A DNA stretch of 38,745 nucleotides from Zoogloea sp. GTDB lineage: Bacteria > Pseudomonadota > Gammaproteobacteria > Burkholderiales > Rhodocyclaceae. The DNA lies in assembly GCA_017309145.1 (NCBI GenBank), contig JAFLDU010000011.1, positions 1-38,745 of the forward strand, given 5' to 3'. Positions 21,748-31,152 of the stretch are shown in pieces; position 1 is the stretch's first letter; each line of letters begins with the position of its first letter. Under the pieces are notes generated by a model. It did not search any database. It worked only from the letters and a program-made list of their open reading frames with translations, and was not told the origin of the DNA. The translations under genes and the position numbers were made by a program.

Positions 21748-22815
21748 TTAGCGGCGATAGTTGCTGACCAGCTTCTCTGGGTCAGCCGGCAGGGTGGCCA
21801 GAATGCTCCGAAGGGATGCCAGGTTGGCGGGCGTTTCGAGCATAAAGCGGTTGTAATGCTCATTGGAGTCGAAGATGTACTTGTTCAGGCCGTGATACAC
21901 CGCACTCAGGAAGGTCTTGCGGATGGGGGCGATTTCCGGGCCTGTCTCAAAGCTGTTGACCATGTCCACCGCTGTCTTGACCAGGCCATTGTTGGTGAGC
22001 AGCCGACCTACTTGATTGACTTTGACCGCGTAGCGGGTGACGTCGTCGAATAAATCGTGGTCATCGTAGATGTAGTCGTAAGTCCGGATGGCCTCCTGGA
22101 TCAGACGTTTCTGCCCGGATGCTGTCTTGCGCAGGCTGGCGTCATGAACCCGATACAGCCCGAGGGCCTCGTTGACCACGTAGGCTGGGCCAACGGTGGC
22201 AAGCCGGATCCACATGTAGTGATCCAGGAAGCCCCCGCGGGGGGCCACCGCATCGTCGCTGCGAAAGCGTTCGATGTGGCGCTCAAAGCCGCCCACCTTG
22301 TTGAAGTGGCTTCTGCGGAAGATGGCAAAAGATTGGATGATCCAGTTGGTGAAGCAAAGGTAGTCAATGAGCTGATGTACCCCCGTGCTCAGGTCGGGCC
22401 GAAACTGTCCGACATCGCCTGTCTCGACTCCATCGATGTAGCGGGAGAAGAGGCTGTAGGCATAAGCGCATCCGGGGTGCAGTGCCAGCCCTTCGACCAG
22501 TACCTTTTGGATGAAATCGGGTTTGAGCAGATCATCGGCATGGAGCTGGAGCACGTATTCTCCCGACAGCATCCCGTAGGCTCGGTTTGCTGAATGGGTA
22601 TGACCCAGGTTCTTCTCGTTGCGATGGAAGCGGAAGCGGGCATCCCGCTCGGCCCATTGCCGCCCAATCTCTGCAGTGGAGTCCTGGGATGCATTGTCGA
22701 TCACCAGAACCTGGAAAGACTCGTGGGTCTGCTGGGCGACCGACCGGAGACATTCGTCCAGGTGGTCAGCGCTGTTGTAGGCTGTGACGATAATGTCGAG
22801 AGAAGTGTTTTCCAT
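21748..22815 (-). CDS. Family 2 glycosyltransferase
   Basis: This protein of about 355 residues has a GT-A fold transferase domain at its N-terminus. It shows LDIIVTAYNSADHLDECL, VLVIDNASQDST and the DxD-type LQLHADDLLKPDF. The C-terminal 130 residues are helical with no assigned domain. The start is ambiguous. ATG 22815 (MENTSLD) begins right at the fold. ATG 22932 forms an ATGA overlap with the Nudix stop but adds a 39-residue Pro-rich extension without a domain. It is the last gene of the CDP-sugar operon and probably transfers a sugar to a surface glycan. Donor and acceptor are unknown. Confidence 0.87.
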   Translation of the reverse strand: MENTSLDIIVTAYNSADHLDECLRSVAQQTHESFQVLVIDNASQDSTAEIGRQWAERDARFRFHRNEKNLGHTHSANRAYGMLSGEYVLQLHADDLLKPDFIQKVLVEGLALHPGCAYAYSLFSRYIDGVETGDVGQFRPDLSTGVHQLIDYLCFTNWIIQSFAIFRRSHFNKVGGFERHIERFRSDDAVAPRGGFLDHYMWIRLATVGPAYVVNEALGLYRVHDASLRKTASGQKRLIQEAIRTYDYIYDDHDLFDDVTRYAVKVNQVGRLLTNNGLVKTAVDMVNSFETGPEIAPIRKTFLSAVYHGLNKYIFDSNEHYNRFMLETPANLASLRSILATLPADPEKLVSNYRR

Positions 22816-22928
22816 GGAAGTCCCAGCAGTGGTCGGGGCAGGCAGGGTGCCGTGAGTGAGCAAGAAGAGGCGTGTTGGATGAGATGGTTGGGGGGCGTTT
22901 TCTCCCGGGGGGTAAGCCGGGGCGGTAA

Positions 22929-23468
22929 TCATCTAGCGGTGTAGCGGCTGCGGTTGATGTCCGGGATGTAGATGCGCTGCTGGGCGATCAGGTTGTCAGG
23001 CGCGCGTTCGTGCCAGGCCCAGTCCCCGTTGCGCGGTGCCTCGGGCGCGAAGCGCCGGCTCGCGTCCAGCGACGAGGTCAGGCGGCAGGCGTACAGCAGC
23101 GAGATGAAATGGCCGCGGACGTCCCGCTGGGGGTTGGTGATCTCATGCAGACCGATGGGGCTGTCGCCGGCGCTCACCGTGGCGCCCAGTTCGCCGGCGG
23201 CCACGGCGGCGATGCGGCTGGCGGCGCTTTCCTTGAAACGGATGATGCCGCCCGGGATGTGCCAGCCCGGGCCGTAGAAGCGGTCGTGGCGCCAGGTGAG
23301 GAGGGTGCGTCCGGCTTCGTCCTGGATCAGCAGGTCCACGTTGATCATCGGGGTGAGGCTGCTGGCCAGCAGGAAGACTTCCTCGGGCAGGCCGCGGGTG
23401 GCCGAGCCCACCGCCTCGCGGATCGTCGCGATGGCGGCCTGCAGGGCGTCGGGGGCGATGTTGTTCAT
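22929..23468 (-). CDS. Nudix hydrolase, GDP-mannose mannosyl hydrolase-like
   Basis: This 179-residue protein matches the Gmm branch of Nudix hydrolases, which cleave nucleotide sugars with release of the sugar. It shows MINVDLLIQDEAGRTLLTWR, GPGWHIPGGIIRFKES and a C-terminal HEITNPQRDVRGHFISLLY. The Nudix box keeps its first Gly and Glu but reads AVAAGELG where REUxEExG is expected. Gmm enzymes are known to have a divergent box, so activity is not excluded. The ATG at 23468 overlaps the methyltransferase stop (ATGA). In a CDP-sugar operon the substrate may be a CDP- or GDP-sugar, possibly removing a side product. Confidence 0.83.
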   Translation of the reverse strand: MNNIAPDALQAAIATIREAVGSATRGLPEEVFLLASSLTPMINVDLLIQDEAGRTLLTWRHDRFYGPGWHIPGGIIRFKESAASRIAAVAAGELGATVSAGDSPIGLHEITNPQRDVRGHFISLLYACRLTSSLDASRRFAPEAPRNGDWAWHERAPDNLIAQQRIYIPDINRSRYTAR

Positions 23469-29322: not shown

Positions 29323-29326
29323 GGGG

Positions 29327-30382
29327 TCATGGAGTGCGGGTGAAATCCGAGATTTCTGCGAGGGTGTAGGCATGCATGTCGGCACCTGCGCGCCAGGCTT
29401 GATACCAGGCGAGGCTGCGCGCCACCGCTTCGTCGGCCGGCCAGCGGGCTTGCCAGCCCAGCAGGCTGCGGGCCTTGCTGCAATCGAGGCGCAGGGTGTG
29501 GGCTTCGTGTACCTGGGGCGTGGCGGCCACTTCCCAGCGGGCGTCGGGGCCCCAGCCTGCGGCGAGGCGCTCGACCACCCAGGCCACGCTGCGGGCGTCG
29601 CTGTCGTCGGGGCCGAAGTTCCAGCCTTCGGCGAAGGTCTCCCCGCCTTCGACAAGGCGCTGGGCCAGCAGCAGGTAGCCGGCGAGGGGTTCGAGCACGT
29701 GCTGCCAGGGGCGGATGGCGCCGGGGCTGCGCAGGGTGACTGGCGTGCCGGCGGCAAAAGCGGCCAGCACGTCGGGCACCAGCCGGCTGGCCGTCCAGTC
29801 GCCGCCCCCGATCACGTTGCCGGCGCGGGCGCTGGCGACGGGGATGCCGGCAGGCGCCAGGAAGGCGCGCCGGTAGGAGGAGACGATGAGTTCAGTGCAG
29901 CCCTTGCTGGCGGAGTAGGGGTCGTGCCCGCCCATCGGGTCGGTCTCCCGATAGCCCCACAGCCATTCGCGGTTTTCGTAGCATTTGTCGCTGCTGACCA
30001 CCACCACGGCCTGGAGGCCCTCCACGTGGCGGCAGGCTTCGAGCAGATGCACACTGCCCATGGCGTTGGTGGCGAAGGTGGCCACCGGCTCGGCATAGGA
30101 CAGGGGCACCAGGGGCTGGGCGGCCAGGTGCAGCACGATCTCGGGCCGTGCGGCGGAGAGGGCGGCGGACAGGGCCGCGTAGTCGCGCACGTCGCCGAGT
30201 GTTGACTGCATGCCGCGGGCCACGTCGGCCACCTCGAAGAGGGCCGGGTCGGTGGCCGGGGCCAGGGCGTAGCCATGCACCTCGGCGCCCATGGTCTGCA
30301 GCCACAGGCATAGCCAGCTGCCCTTGAAGCCGGTGTGGCCGCTGACGAAGACCCGCCGGCCCTGCCAGAAGGCGGGATTCAC
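29327..30382 (-). CDS. rfbG: CDP-glucose 4,6-dehydratase
   Basis: RfbG converts CDP-glucose to CDP-4-keto-6-deoxyglucose with bound NAD. The 351-residue protein has the Rossmann motif VSGHTGFKGSWL at its N-terminus and the catalytic YSASK. The family blocks DKCYENREWLWGYRE and GNVIGGGDW are also present. The start is probably GTG 30382, which overlaps the rfbF stop as GTGA and has GGAAA upstream. TTG 30394 would add four residues. The product feeds RfbH directly. Length and motifs match the CDP-specific branch rather than dTDP-glucose dehydratases. Confidence 0.94.
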   Translation of the reverse strand: MNPAFWQGRRVFVSGHTGFKGSWLCLWLQTMGAEVHGYALAPATDPALFEVADVARGMQSTLGDVRDYAALSAALSAARPEIVLHLAAQPLVPLSYAEPVATFATNAMGSVHLLEACRHVEGLQAVVVVSSDKCYENREWLWGYRETDPMGGHDPYSASKGCTELIVSSYRRAFLAPAGIPVASARAGNVIGGGDWTASRLVPDVLAAFAAGTPVTLRSPGAIRPWQHVLEPLAGYLLLAQRLVEGGETFAEGWNFGPDDSDARSVAWVVERLAAGWGPDARWEVAATPQVHEAHTLRLDCSKARSLLGWQARWPADEAVARSLAWYQAWRAGADMHAYTLAEISDFTRTP

Positions 30383-31152
30383 CAGGTTTTCCAAGGTGCT
30401 TCGCCGCTCTGCCAGAGTTCTTCGAGGAAGGTCTTGTCGCGCAGGGTGTCCATCGGCCGCCAGAAGCCGGTGTGCTCGTAGGCGGCCAGCTGCTTGCGGG
30501 CGATCAGCTTGCCCAGGGGGGCGCCTTCAAAGACGCTGTGGTCACCTTCGATGTAGTCCAGCACCTGGGGGGACAGGATGAAGAAGCCGCCGTTGATGAA
30601 GCCGCCGTCCCCCAGGGGCTTCTCGACGAAGGCGCTGACCGTGCTGTCAGCCTTGATCTTGAGGGCGCCGAAGCGACCTGGAGGCTGTACCGCGGCGACT
30701 GTGGCGAGCTTGCCATGGGCCCGGTGGAAGGCGATCTCGGCAGTGATGTCGATGTCGGCGACGCCGTCGCCATAGGTGTAGCAGAAGGCCTCCTCATCCT
30801 GCACGTACTGCCGTACCCGGGCCAGGCGACCGCCGGTCTGGGTGGAGTCGCCGGTGTCCACCAGGGTGACCCGCCAGGGTTCGGCGTGGCGCTCGTGGAT
30901 CTCCATGCGGTTGTTGGTCATGTCGAAGGTGACGTCCGACATGTGCAGGAAGTAGTTGGCGAAGTATTCCTTGATCACGTAGCCCATGTAGCCGCAGCAG
31001 ATCACGAAGTCGTGGATGCCGTGGCTGGAGTAGATCTTCATGATGTGCCACAGGATGGGCCGCCCGCCGATGCCGATCATCGGCTTCGGACGGTTGACGG
31101 TTTCTTCACTGATGCGGGTGCCCAGGCCACCCGCGAGTATCACGGCCTTCAT
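30379..31152 (-). CDS. rfbF: Glucose-1-phosphate cytidylyltransferase
   Basis: RfbF makes CDP-glucose from CTP and glucose-1-phosphate, the entry to CDP-3,6-dideoxysugars. The 257-residue protein equals the length of Salmonella RfbF. It has the nucleotidyltransferase loop AGGLGTRISEETVNRPKPM, VICCGYMGYVIKEYF, TGDSTQTGGR and YGDGVADID. I chose ATG 31152 (MKAVILAGG), with GGAG seven bases before it; the longer open frame lacks homology. It is the first gene of the leftward sugar operon. No clear promoter was seen in the 156 bp upstream. Confidence 0.96.
   Translation of the reverse strand: MKAVILAGGLGTRISEETVNRPKPMIGIGGRPILWHIMKIYSSHGIHDFVICCGYMGYVIKEYFANYFLHMSDVTFDMTNNRMEIHERHAEPWRVTLVDTGDSTQTGGRLARVRQYVQDEEAFCYTYGDGVADIDITAEIAFHRAHGKLATVAAVQPPGRFGALKIKADSTVSAFVEKPLGDGGFINGGFFILSPQVLDYIEGDHSVFEGAPLGKLIARKQLAAYEHTGFWRPMDTLRDKTFLEELWQSGEAPWKTW

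Follow-up and report, generated by a model that had tools for sequence, protein, structure and literature searches.

The window analysed here is the whole of a 38.7-kb contig from a Zoogloea sp. genome (4.86 Mb in 416 contigs, with a completeness of 89% and a contamination of 6%). Our subject is a group of eight minus-strand genes at 21748-31152 that combines the RfbF, RfbG and RfbH enzymes of cytidine diphosphate (CDP)-deoxysugar synthesis with a NeuB-family phosphoenolpyruvate (PEP) synthase and a thiamine diphosphate (ThDP)-dependent enzyme. An initial annotation of this DNA had assigned the eight genes to families, and our family scans agreed with it throughout, including the Nudix match, which lies only just above its cut-off. 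In order of transcription, the genes are as follows:

30379..31152, minus strand: RfbF, glucose-1-phosphate cytidylyltransferase (TIGR02623, 461 bits, cut-off 300)
29327..30394, minus strand: RfbG, CDP-glucose 4,6-dehydratase (TIGR02622, 481 bits, cut-off 278; start TTG at 30394 or GTG at 30382)
27949..29322, minus strand: RfbH, 3-dehydratase giving CDP-4-keto-3,6-dideoxyglucose, the proposed acceptor maker (NF011936, 722 bits, cut-off 423)
26456..27952, minus strand: NeuB-family PEP synthase with a fused D-lyxose-isomerase-like cupin, the proposed 3-deoxy-2-ulosonate donor synthase (PF03102, 145 bits, cut-off 22; SAF; Cupin_2)
24626..26449, minus strand: YerE-like ThDP carboligase, proposed to join the donor to C4 of the CDP-ketosugar (TPP_enzyme N, M and C domains)
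23465..24616, minus strand: TylC3/TcaB9-type S-adenosylmethionine (SAM) C-methyltransferase (PF13489; PF08484, 55 bits, cut-off 23.5)
22929..23468, minus strand: Nudix hydrolase, distantly Gmm-like (PF00293, 22.2 bits, cut-off 21.1, barely exceeded)
21748..22932, minus strand: family 2 glycosyltransferase (GT2) (PF00535, 85 bits; start 22932 or 22815)

As the initial annotation had also pointed out, the genes are closely spaced, and with the likeliest starts nearly all of them are coupled. RfbF and RfbG overlap by 4-16 bp, depending on the start codon chosen, RfbG and RfbH are 4 bp apart, RfbH and NeuB overlap by 4 bp, gaps of 6 and 9 bp separate the ThDP gene from NeuB and from the methyltransferase gene, respectively, and the methyltransferase and Nudix genes overlap by 4 bp. 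The Nudix/GT2 junction depends on the start, with an overlap of 4 bp for ATG 22932 and a gap of 113 bp for ATG 22815. In a scan of 84,980 species genomes, the named relatives of the NeuB gene belong to Zoogloea, Thauera and other Rhodocyclales, and a gene-neighbourhood search, which the initial annotation had proposed, found the run from RfbF to Nudix, with its order kept, in relatives such as Thauera aminoaromatica (L048) and Zoogloea dura (L049). Because this order recurs in named relatives, the operon is not a chance arrangement. A scan of the window for promoters and terminators gave matches at the level of shuffled sequences, and a tRNA search gave none. The C-methyltransferase matches the sugar 3-C-methyltransferase 5t64 and TcaB9; its PF13489 and PF08484 domains are above cut-off, whereas its zinc domain PF08421 scores 20.1 bits versus a cut-off of 31.3. 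The Nudix protein did not reach the cut-off of NF011963 (28 bits versus 146).

The best NCBIfam match of the ThDP enzyme is TIGR00118, at 354 bits versus a cut-off of 538, and its closest solved protein is 8rph, with 393 bits as against 261 bits for the best acetolactate synthase. We take 8rph to be JanthE, and the CDG motif seen in its alignment fits the description of JanthE in the review of these enzymes. A quick maximum-likelihood tree was built from 89 of the 132 aligned rows, after removal of rows shorter than 500 amino acids and of those sharing 80% identity or more with a retained row; some of its branches are long and its details unsure, and its characterised YerE-like reference is JanthE, no YerE or ErwE sequence being included. 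In this tree, 76 YerE-like rows, JanthE among them, are split from 13 low-identity ThDP controls with 99% support in the Shimodaira-Hasegawa-like approximate likelihood ratio test (SH-aLRT), and the window enzyme sits in a clade of 24 rows (100%) together with the enzyme of Mycobacterium gastri. Such a phylogeny had been suggested by the initial annotation, and in it the window enzyme lies outside the acetolactate-synthase-type rows and groups with the YerE-like ketone-accepting ligases; ketone carboligation is predicted from its family. The earlier suggestion of a branched deoxysugar made through a YerE-type step is upheld by this position of the enzyme with JanthE.

For the motif counts, ThDP rows with a stop or with fewer than 480 amino acids had been dropped. 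The catalytic Glu50 is kept in 131 of the 132 aligned rows. The canonical GDG cofactor motif is absent from the window enzyme, which carries SDG instead; in this alignment column, SDG is found in 47 rows including the window, GDG in 77, CDG in three including JanthE, and another residue or a gap in five. JanthE is active in spite of its CDG motif, which is called unique in the same source (PMC12247030, partial text), and thus the first glycine of GDG is not a defining feature of YerE-like enzymes. SDG is a further variant of the ThDP cofactor motif beyond the CDG of JanthE.

The NeuB protein has 498 amino acids, in which Pfam recognises a NeuB barrel, a SAF domain and a C-terminal cupin (residues about 346-498); this fused cupin was not part of the initial annotation. 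Its AlphaFold2 model, made from a 46-sequence alignment, has a mean predicted local distance difference test score of 93.4 and a predicted template modelling score of 0.77, which indicates a reliable fold of each domain and a less certain arrangement of the domains relative to each other. Foldseek matched the NeuB half to 3g8r (65% identity, 1.2 Å root mean square deviation, rmsd) and to NeuB/PseI, and the cupin half to the D-lyxose isomerases 2y0o (E 1e-11, 2.2 Å rmsd, 164 columns, 28% identity) and 7nzo-7nzq. The 3g8r protein, the solved 'SpsE' of Chromobacterium violaceum, is filed as a probable spore-coat protein, and its solved chain of 350 amino acids is without the cupin half.

The window protein was compared with 28 canonical NeuB proteins (28/30 kept). 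It has in common with them Glu10, Asn14, His15, Lys45, Gln47, Lys117, Ser120, Ser142, His169, Tyr174, His203, Glu224 and His226, which we take to be the catalytic, PEP and metal site known from NeuB structures. In contrast, positions that are at least 89% conserved in the canonical proteins are changed (Thr to Tyr48, Phe to Arg49, Glu to Ser122, Asp to Asn237 and Lys to Arg281), and these presumably face the N-acyl sugar. Neither equivalog cut-off is reached, with 141 bits versus 400 for NeuB_NnaB and 125 versus 340 for PseI. No second NeuB was found at E 1e-20 in the genome, at its 89% completeness. The genome has one cytidine monophosphate (CMP)-sugar synthetase gene, apparently KdsB judged by its neighbours, and no member of this family is present among the 30 open reading frames (ORFs) of the window that were scanned. 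The protein is therefore like the NeuB/PseI nonulosonate synthases in its fold, its SAF domain and the presumed active-site positions, and it differs from them by the replaced conserved positions, by the fused D-lyxose-isomerase-like domain and by the lack of a CMP-sugar synthetase in the scanned ORFs. We rejected a canonical nonulosonate synthase on the grounds of the sub-cut-off scores, the replaced positions and the lone CMP-sugar synthetase of the genome.

Of the cupin residues, His416, Lys419, Glu421 and His455 do not vary across the 46 rows, and position 414 is Gln in 31 of them, including the window, and His in 15. On our assumption of which 2y0o residues bind the metal, three of the four ligand positions of lyxose isomerase (His416, Glu421 and His455) are kept. 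The domain thus has the cupin fold in common with D-lyxose isomerase and differs from it by the fusion to NeuB and by Gln at the fourth ligand position.

The scan of species genomes gave 114 relatives of the NeuB-cupin protein, of which 80 were kept, each with a fetched stretch of up to 10 kb on each side; all these counts rest on identity and coverage thresholds of our own choice. A YerE-like ThDP gene is present in 72 of the 80 stretches, within 300 bp of NeuB in 53 of them, and in 52 of the 54 loci that have at least 5 kb on both sides. RfbH is found in 53 of the 80 loci, RfbF in 51, RfbG in 44, the methyltransferase in 38, and the Nudix and radical SAM proteins in 31 each. No match to the C-methyltransferase was found in 24 of the 52 ThDP-bearing loci with sufficient flanks, so it is optional. 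The loci with ThDP carry 17 phylum labels, with six further loci unlabelled, and all 80 loci carry 18. The initial annotation had regarded the combination of PEP-, ThDP- and SAM-dependent chemistry as unusual; for PEP and ThDP, these figures show that this does not hold. As controls, we used 30 canonical NeuB/PseI-type loci; 98 of 249 genomes had yielded such matches, and these 30 scored best. A ThDP gene lies within 1.5 kb in none of these 30 loci, as compared with 70 of the 80 fused-NeuB loci, the distance being measured from the NeuB domain match in the former and from the ORF in the latter. RfbF-like matches, with no identity threshold, occurred in six of the controls and RfbH-like ones in five.

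A further set of 45 loci (20 + 25 regions) was anchored on the ThDP gene regardless of NeuB, again with identity and coverage thresholds that we chose ourselves, leaving out the window, L025 and the mycobacterial L077, L078, L080 and L083 (known NeuB-cupin beside ThDP). Within a reach of 6 kb, 26 of them have NeuB, 11 have another donor family, eight have neither and none has both, as against about 6.4 expected if the two were independent (p about 7e-6, uncorrected for relatedness). The 26 NeuB loci comprise 12 with a fused cupin, one with a fused xylose-isomerase-like TIM barrel and 13 of the unfused type, the missing fused domain being confirmed by Pfam in L033, L034 and L039 only. The 11 others comprise eight with an HpcH/HpaI aldolase, two of DmpG type, in which a 4-hydroxy-2-oxovalerate aldolase is accompanied by acetaldehyde dehydrogenase, and one with an enolase-superfamily dehydratase-like protein; one HpaI locus (L224) also has DmpG and acetaldehyde dehydrogenase. 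In four mycobacterial loci with the same RfbF, RfbH, RfbG layout, the gene after ThDP is NeuB (L232, L234), HpaI (L233) or dehydratase-like (L235). Among the 80 NeuB-cupin loci, a DmpG-like gene is present only in L102, which is without ThDP.

On the ThDP tree, the donor labels switch at least 12 times, with the label 'none' taken as one state. Any donor-family gene lies within 1.5 kb of ThDP in 33 of the 45 YerE-like loci versus none of 19 non-YerE ThDP loci (21 control loci less L165 and L176, two fragments of a single YerE-like gene). The linkage in 72 of 80 loci, the 30 controls without ThDP and this swap pattern led us to reject the idea that NeuB and ThDP stand together by chance. 3-Deoxy-2-oxo acids, most often bearing a 4-hydroxyl, are possible products of the NeuB, HpaI, DmpG and acid dehydratase families, and a shared product of this kind is the simplest reason for the exchange of donor genes; the reaction assigned here to the enolase-superfamily member is a guess.

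Among the described YerE-like enzymes, ErwE uses 4-hydroxy-2-oxo acids and not pyruvate as donors, the caryophyllose enzyme MMAR_2332 has a donor preference like that of ErwE, MygE of M. gastri takes C3-C8 keto acids, as tested with benzaldehyde, and YerE itself uses pyruvate (PMC12247030, partial text). The donors of ErwE and MMAR_2332 are hydroxylated 2-oxo acids, like the donor proposed for the window. Caryophyllose is 3,6-dideoxy-4-C-[D-altro-1,3,4,5-tetrahydroxyhexyl]-D-xylo-hexopyranose (PMC5706390, partial text). Its branch carries no oxygen at C2', the position that would be C3 of the keto acid; this is what decarboxylation of a 3-deoxy-2-oxo acid and addition through its carbonyl would give. 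The clusters for yersiniose (YerE), erwiniose (ErwE) and caryophyllose (MMAR_2332), as well as that of JanthE, have RfbF/RfbG/RfbH and a YerE-like ThDP enzyme in common with the window, together with the same proposed acceptor. The window differs from them in its proposed donor, which would come from a NeuB-type PEP synthase with an isomerase-like fusion, in having SDG versus GDG or CDG, and in its location near flagellin.

In M. gastri, RfbF, RfbG, RfbH, NeuB-cupin (59% identity) and ThDP (55-56%) are found in one locus, in which the ThDP gene comes directly after NeuB-cupin and overlaps it, followed by a haloacid dehalogenase (HAD) phosphatase and two methyltransferases. This organism shows a single YerE-like ThDP enzyme (56%; next best 33%), and we infer that it is MygE. 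The locus differs from the window in the HAD phosphatase, in its two methyltransferases, which are of other families, and in having no match to the C-methyltransferase, Nudix or radical SAM proteins. Its product is titled a C4-branched 3,6-dideoxy-xylo-hexopyranose (PMC7261415, partial text) and sits, to go by reference titles, on lipooligosaccharide, whereas the window cluster is near flagellin genes. The initial annotation had recognised no described pathway with this set of enzymes; this stands in so far as we found no description of the M. gastri pathway, and fails in so far as an organism with a published branched-sugar structure has RfbF, RfbG, RfbH, NeuB-cupin and ThDP. The branch of the M. 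gastri sugar is reportedly 1,3-dimethoxy-4,5,6,7-tetrahydroxyheptyl. If so, its donor would be 3-deoxy-octulosonate, made from PEP and a pentose, which fits a D-xylulose/D-lyxose-type isomerase domain.

We propose, with a probability of roughly 0.7, that the operon joins two separately built halves into one long-branched CDP-sugar. By the established chemistry of their families, RfbF, RfbG and RfbH convert glucose-1-phosphate to CDP-4-keto-3,6-dideoxyglucose, which would be the acceptor half. For the donor half, the cupin would isomerise a ketose, yielding an aldose (a pentose is the most likely one) that the NeuB domain would condense with PEP to give a free 3-deoxy-2-ulosonic acid, i.e., 3-deoxy-octulosonate in the case of a pentose. 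The ThDP enzyme, to judge from the activity of its family, would then decarboxylate the alpha-keto acid and add the acyl chain to the C4 ketone. The new ketone would be reduced, perhaps by the short-chain dehydrogenase/reductase (SDR) at 20673-21722, and the methyltransferases would decorate the product, the C-methyltransferase acting beside a ketone, either at C3 before the joining or at C2' after it. The location of the cluster suggests that the glycosyltransferases place the sugar on flagellin. With a pentose, the product would have 13 carbons, namely 3,6-dideoxy-4-C-(hexahydroxyheptyl)-hexose, which equals the presumed M. gastri sugar without its methyl groups. This detail of pentose acceptor and C13 product is tentative.

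It is quite probable that NeuB makes the donor for the ThDP enzyme, a role that goes beyond the initial annotation: NeuB is the most likely donor maker because it swaps with families that produce 2-oxo acids and because ErwE uses such acids. The chemistry of NeuB and that of ThDP most likely form one pathway, its reactions being predicted from the protein families. On a broader scale, we lean towards a widespread modular class, in which a NeuB-like enzyme, often fused to an isomerase, would make a free 3-deoxy-2-ulosonic acid that is decarboxylated and joined to a CDP-ketosugar by a YerE-like ligase rather than activated with CMP. This class would yield C12-C13 sugars on flagella or envelopes, and the donor module, exchanged among unrelated enzymes (NeuB, HpaI, DmpG or acid dehydratase), would set the length and pattern of the branch.

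The same genes could instead serve two independent sugars, with RfbF, RfbG, RfbH and ThDP making a yersiniose-like sugar from pyruvate, as YerE itself does, and NeuB a separate nonulosonic acid for flagellin. The flagellin gene is near, and flagellins commonly bear such acids. Nevertheless, this is unlikely, since the NeuB scores of 141 and 125 bits stay well under the cut-offs of 400 (NeuB_NnaB) and 340 (PseI), positions strongly conserved in canonical NeuB are altered, the one CMP-sugar synthetase of the genome is apparently KdsB, and NeuB and the aldolases are mutually exclusive beside ThDP in the 45 loci. A reverse extension, in which NeuB would add PEP to a sugar already branched by the ThDP enzyme, is also compatible with the gene linkage. 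We consider it very unlikely, given that an aldolase or an acid dehydratase can fill the NeuB slot, that a CDP-sugar has no free aldehyde, that an isomerase-like domain is fused to NeuB, and that ErwE prefers long 4-hydroxy-2-oxo acids as donors (PMC12247030, partial text). A normal acetolactate synthase present by chance is hardly credible: TIGR00118 is indeed the best NCBIfam match of the ThDP enzyme, but the score below its cut-off, the preference for 8rph and the 99% split from the 13 control rows speak against it, and no acetolactate synthase small subunit was found among the 30 window ORFs scanned.

Several observations weigh against the proposed joining of two halves. The loci share common descent, and the 45 ThDP loci and the 80 NeuB-cupin loci come in part from the same organisms, so the counts are not independent. 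ThDP is lacking in eight of the 80 NeuB-cupin loci, and two of these, L102 and L123, have about 10 kb on each side. RfbH is present in only three of the 12 Bacillota loci, in which the acceptor ketosugar may differ from the RfbH product. In the swap, Pfam confirmed the HpaI family in L037 and L224 only of the eight HpaI loci, the rest being BLAST matches to L037 at 41-64%, and in three of the eight (L225, L229, L230) the HpaI gene is 1.8 to 5.9 kb off. Of the eight loci without either class, three (L038, L218 and L219) lie where their contigs end and four (L045, L216, L222 and L227) are unexplained; the flanks of L045, L216 and L227 extend to about 9 kb in both directions. Pfam scans covered some neighbours of L045, L216 and L222 and none of L227, and a gene that could make the donor was recognised in none of the four. 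The last of the eight, L231, has only an SDR and a glycosyltransferase after ThDP, as in the yersiniose-type set, and looks pyruvate-type. L025, outside the 45, has none of the donor families within 1.5 kb. In the window, Gln414 occupies the position of the first metal ligand in lyxose isomerase, and this makes the isomerase activity uncertain. None of the 30 window ORFs that were scanned was recognised as an RfbI-type reductase, and the lack of a nonulosonate synthetase is no proof in a genome that is 89% complete and 6% contaminated. Finally, the heptyl branch of the M. gastri sugar was not found in print.

Clusters of the YerE type are already known, and the new element is the NeuB donor route. 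Our literature search found no description of a donor role of NeuB for YerE-like enzymes; it missed key Freiburg papers, including an in silico study of >200 YerE-like enzymes, so a prior proposal is possible. In the main text of PMC12247030, as far as available, the words NeuB, PEP and sialic are absent and aldolases appear only as another class of biocatalyst. With the proposed route, the origin of the long side chains in bacterial C12-C13 sugars becomes testable; in the literature searched, no description was found of how their donors are supplied. If true, it would explain the long branches of gastriose and caryophyllose, give a function to the NeuB-like group that includes 3g8r, make the structure of a branch predictable from the donor gene beside the ThDP gene, and suggest natural donors for ThDP biocatalysts such as JanthE.

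The physiological substrates of JanthE have not yet been identified according to its authors (PMC12188165, partial text). At L228:8945-13819, a relative with 59% identity to JanthE and the same CDG motif adjoins a DmpG-type aldolase and an acylating acetaldehyde dehydrogenase, a neighbourhood pointing to 4-hydroxy-2-oxopentanoate as the donor that JanthE-type enzymes would use in nature.

The operon is flanked in the window by further genes for sugar modification and for the flagellum, the latter not considered in the initial annotation:

20673..21722, plus strand: extended SDR, candidate reductase of the 1'-ketone after the ThDP step (PF01370, 126 bits; 39% to an SDR in the M. gastri locus)
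19406..20335, minus strand: FkbM methyltransferase, candidate for O-methylation (PF05050)
18278..19390, minus strand: radical SAM/SPASM protein (PF04055; in 31/80 NeuB-cupin loci)
17483..18274, minus strand: protein of 263 amino acids with no Pfam family, adjoining the radical SAM gene (in 15/80 NeuB-cupin loci)
13795..17496, minus strand: GT2-containing protein of 1233 amino acids, candidate flagellin glycosyltransferase (PF00535)
12647..13507, minus strand: flagellin, the likely glycan acceptor (PF00669, PF00700)

The flagellin, FliD, FliS and FliK genes occupy 8655-13507, and this location suggests that the region is a flagellin glycosylation island. A flagellar link was seen in few of the other loci, since only two of the 80 NeuB-cupin loci match the window flagellin, FliD or FliS in the fetched stretch.

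Some loci of the survey show other arrangements. L102 has NeuB-cupin with the methyltransferase, Nudix, radical SAM and DmpG-like genes and no ThDP within about 10 kb on each side. The Bacillota loci L106, L108, L110, L111, L119, L120 and L125 have NeuB-cupin and ThDP with no RfbH at the threshold used. The enolase-superfamily protein at L235:7659-9347, in the slot after ThDP, adjoins a mannitol-dehydrogenase-type gene, and this pair is a possible oxidation-dehydration route to a donor. At L032:10882-12849, a NeuB fused to a xylose-isomerase-like TIM barrel lies beside ThDP, which represents a second, unrelated isomerase-like fusion. In L052 and L055, the NeuB-cupin set is followed a few kb on by a second, divergent ThDP (38-39%) and NeuB (28-30% identity), and BLAST labels this second pair of L052 as TIM-barrel type.

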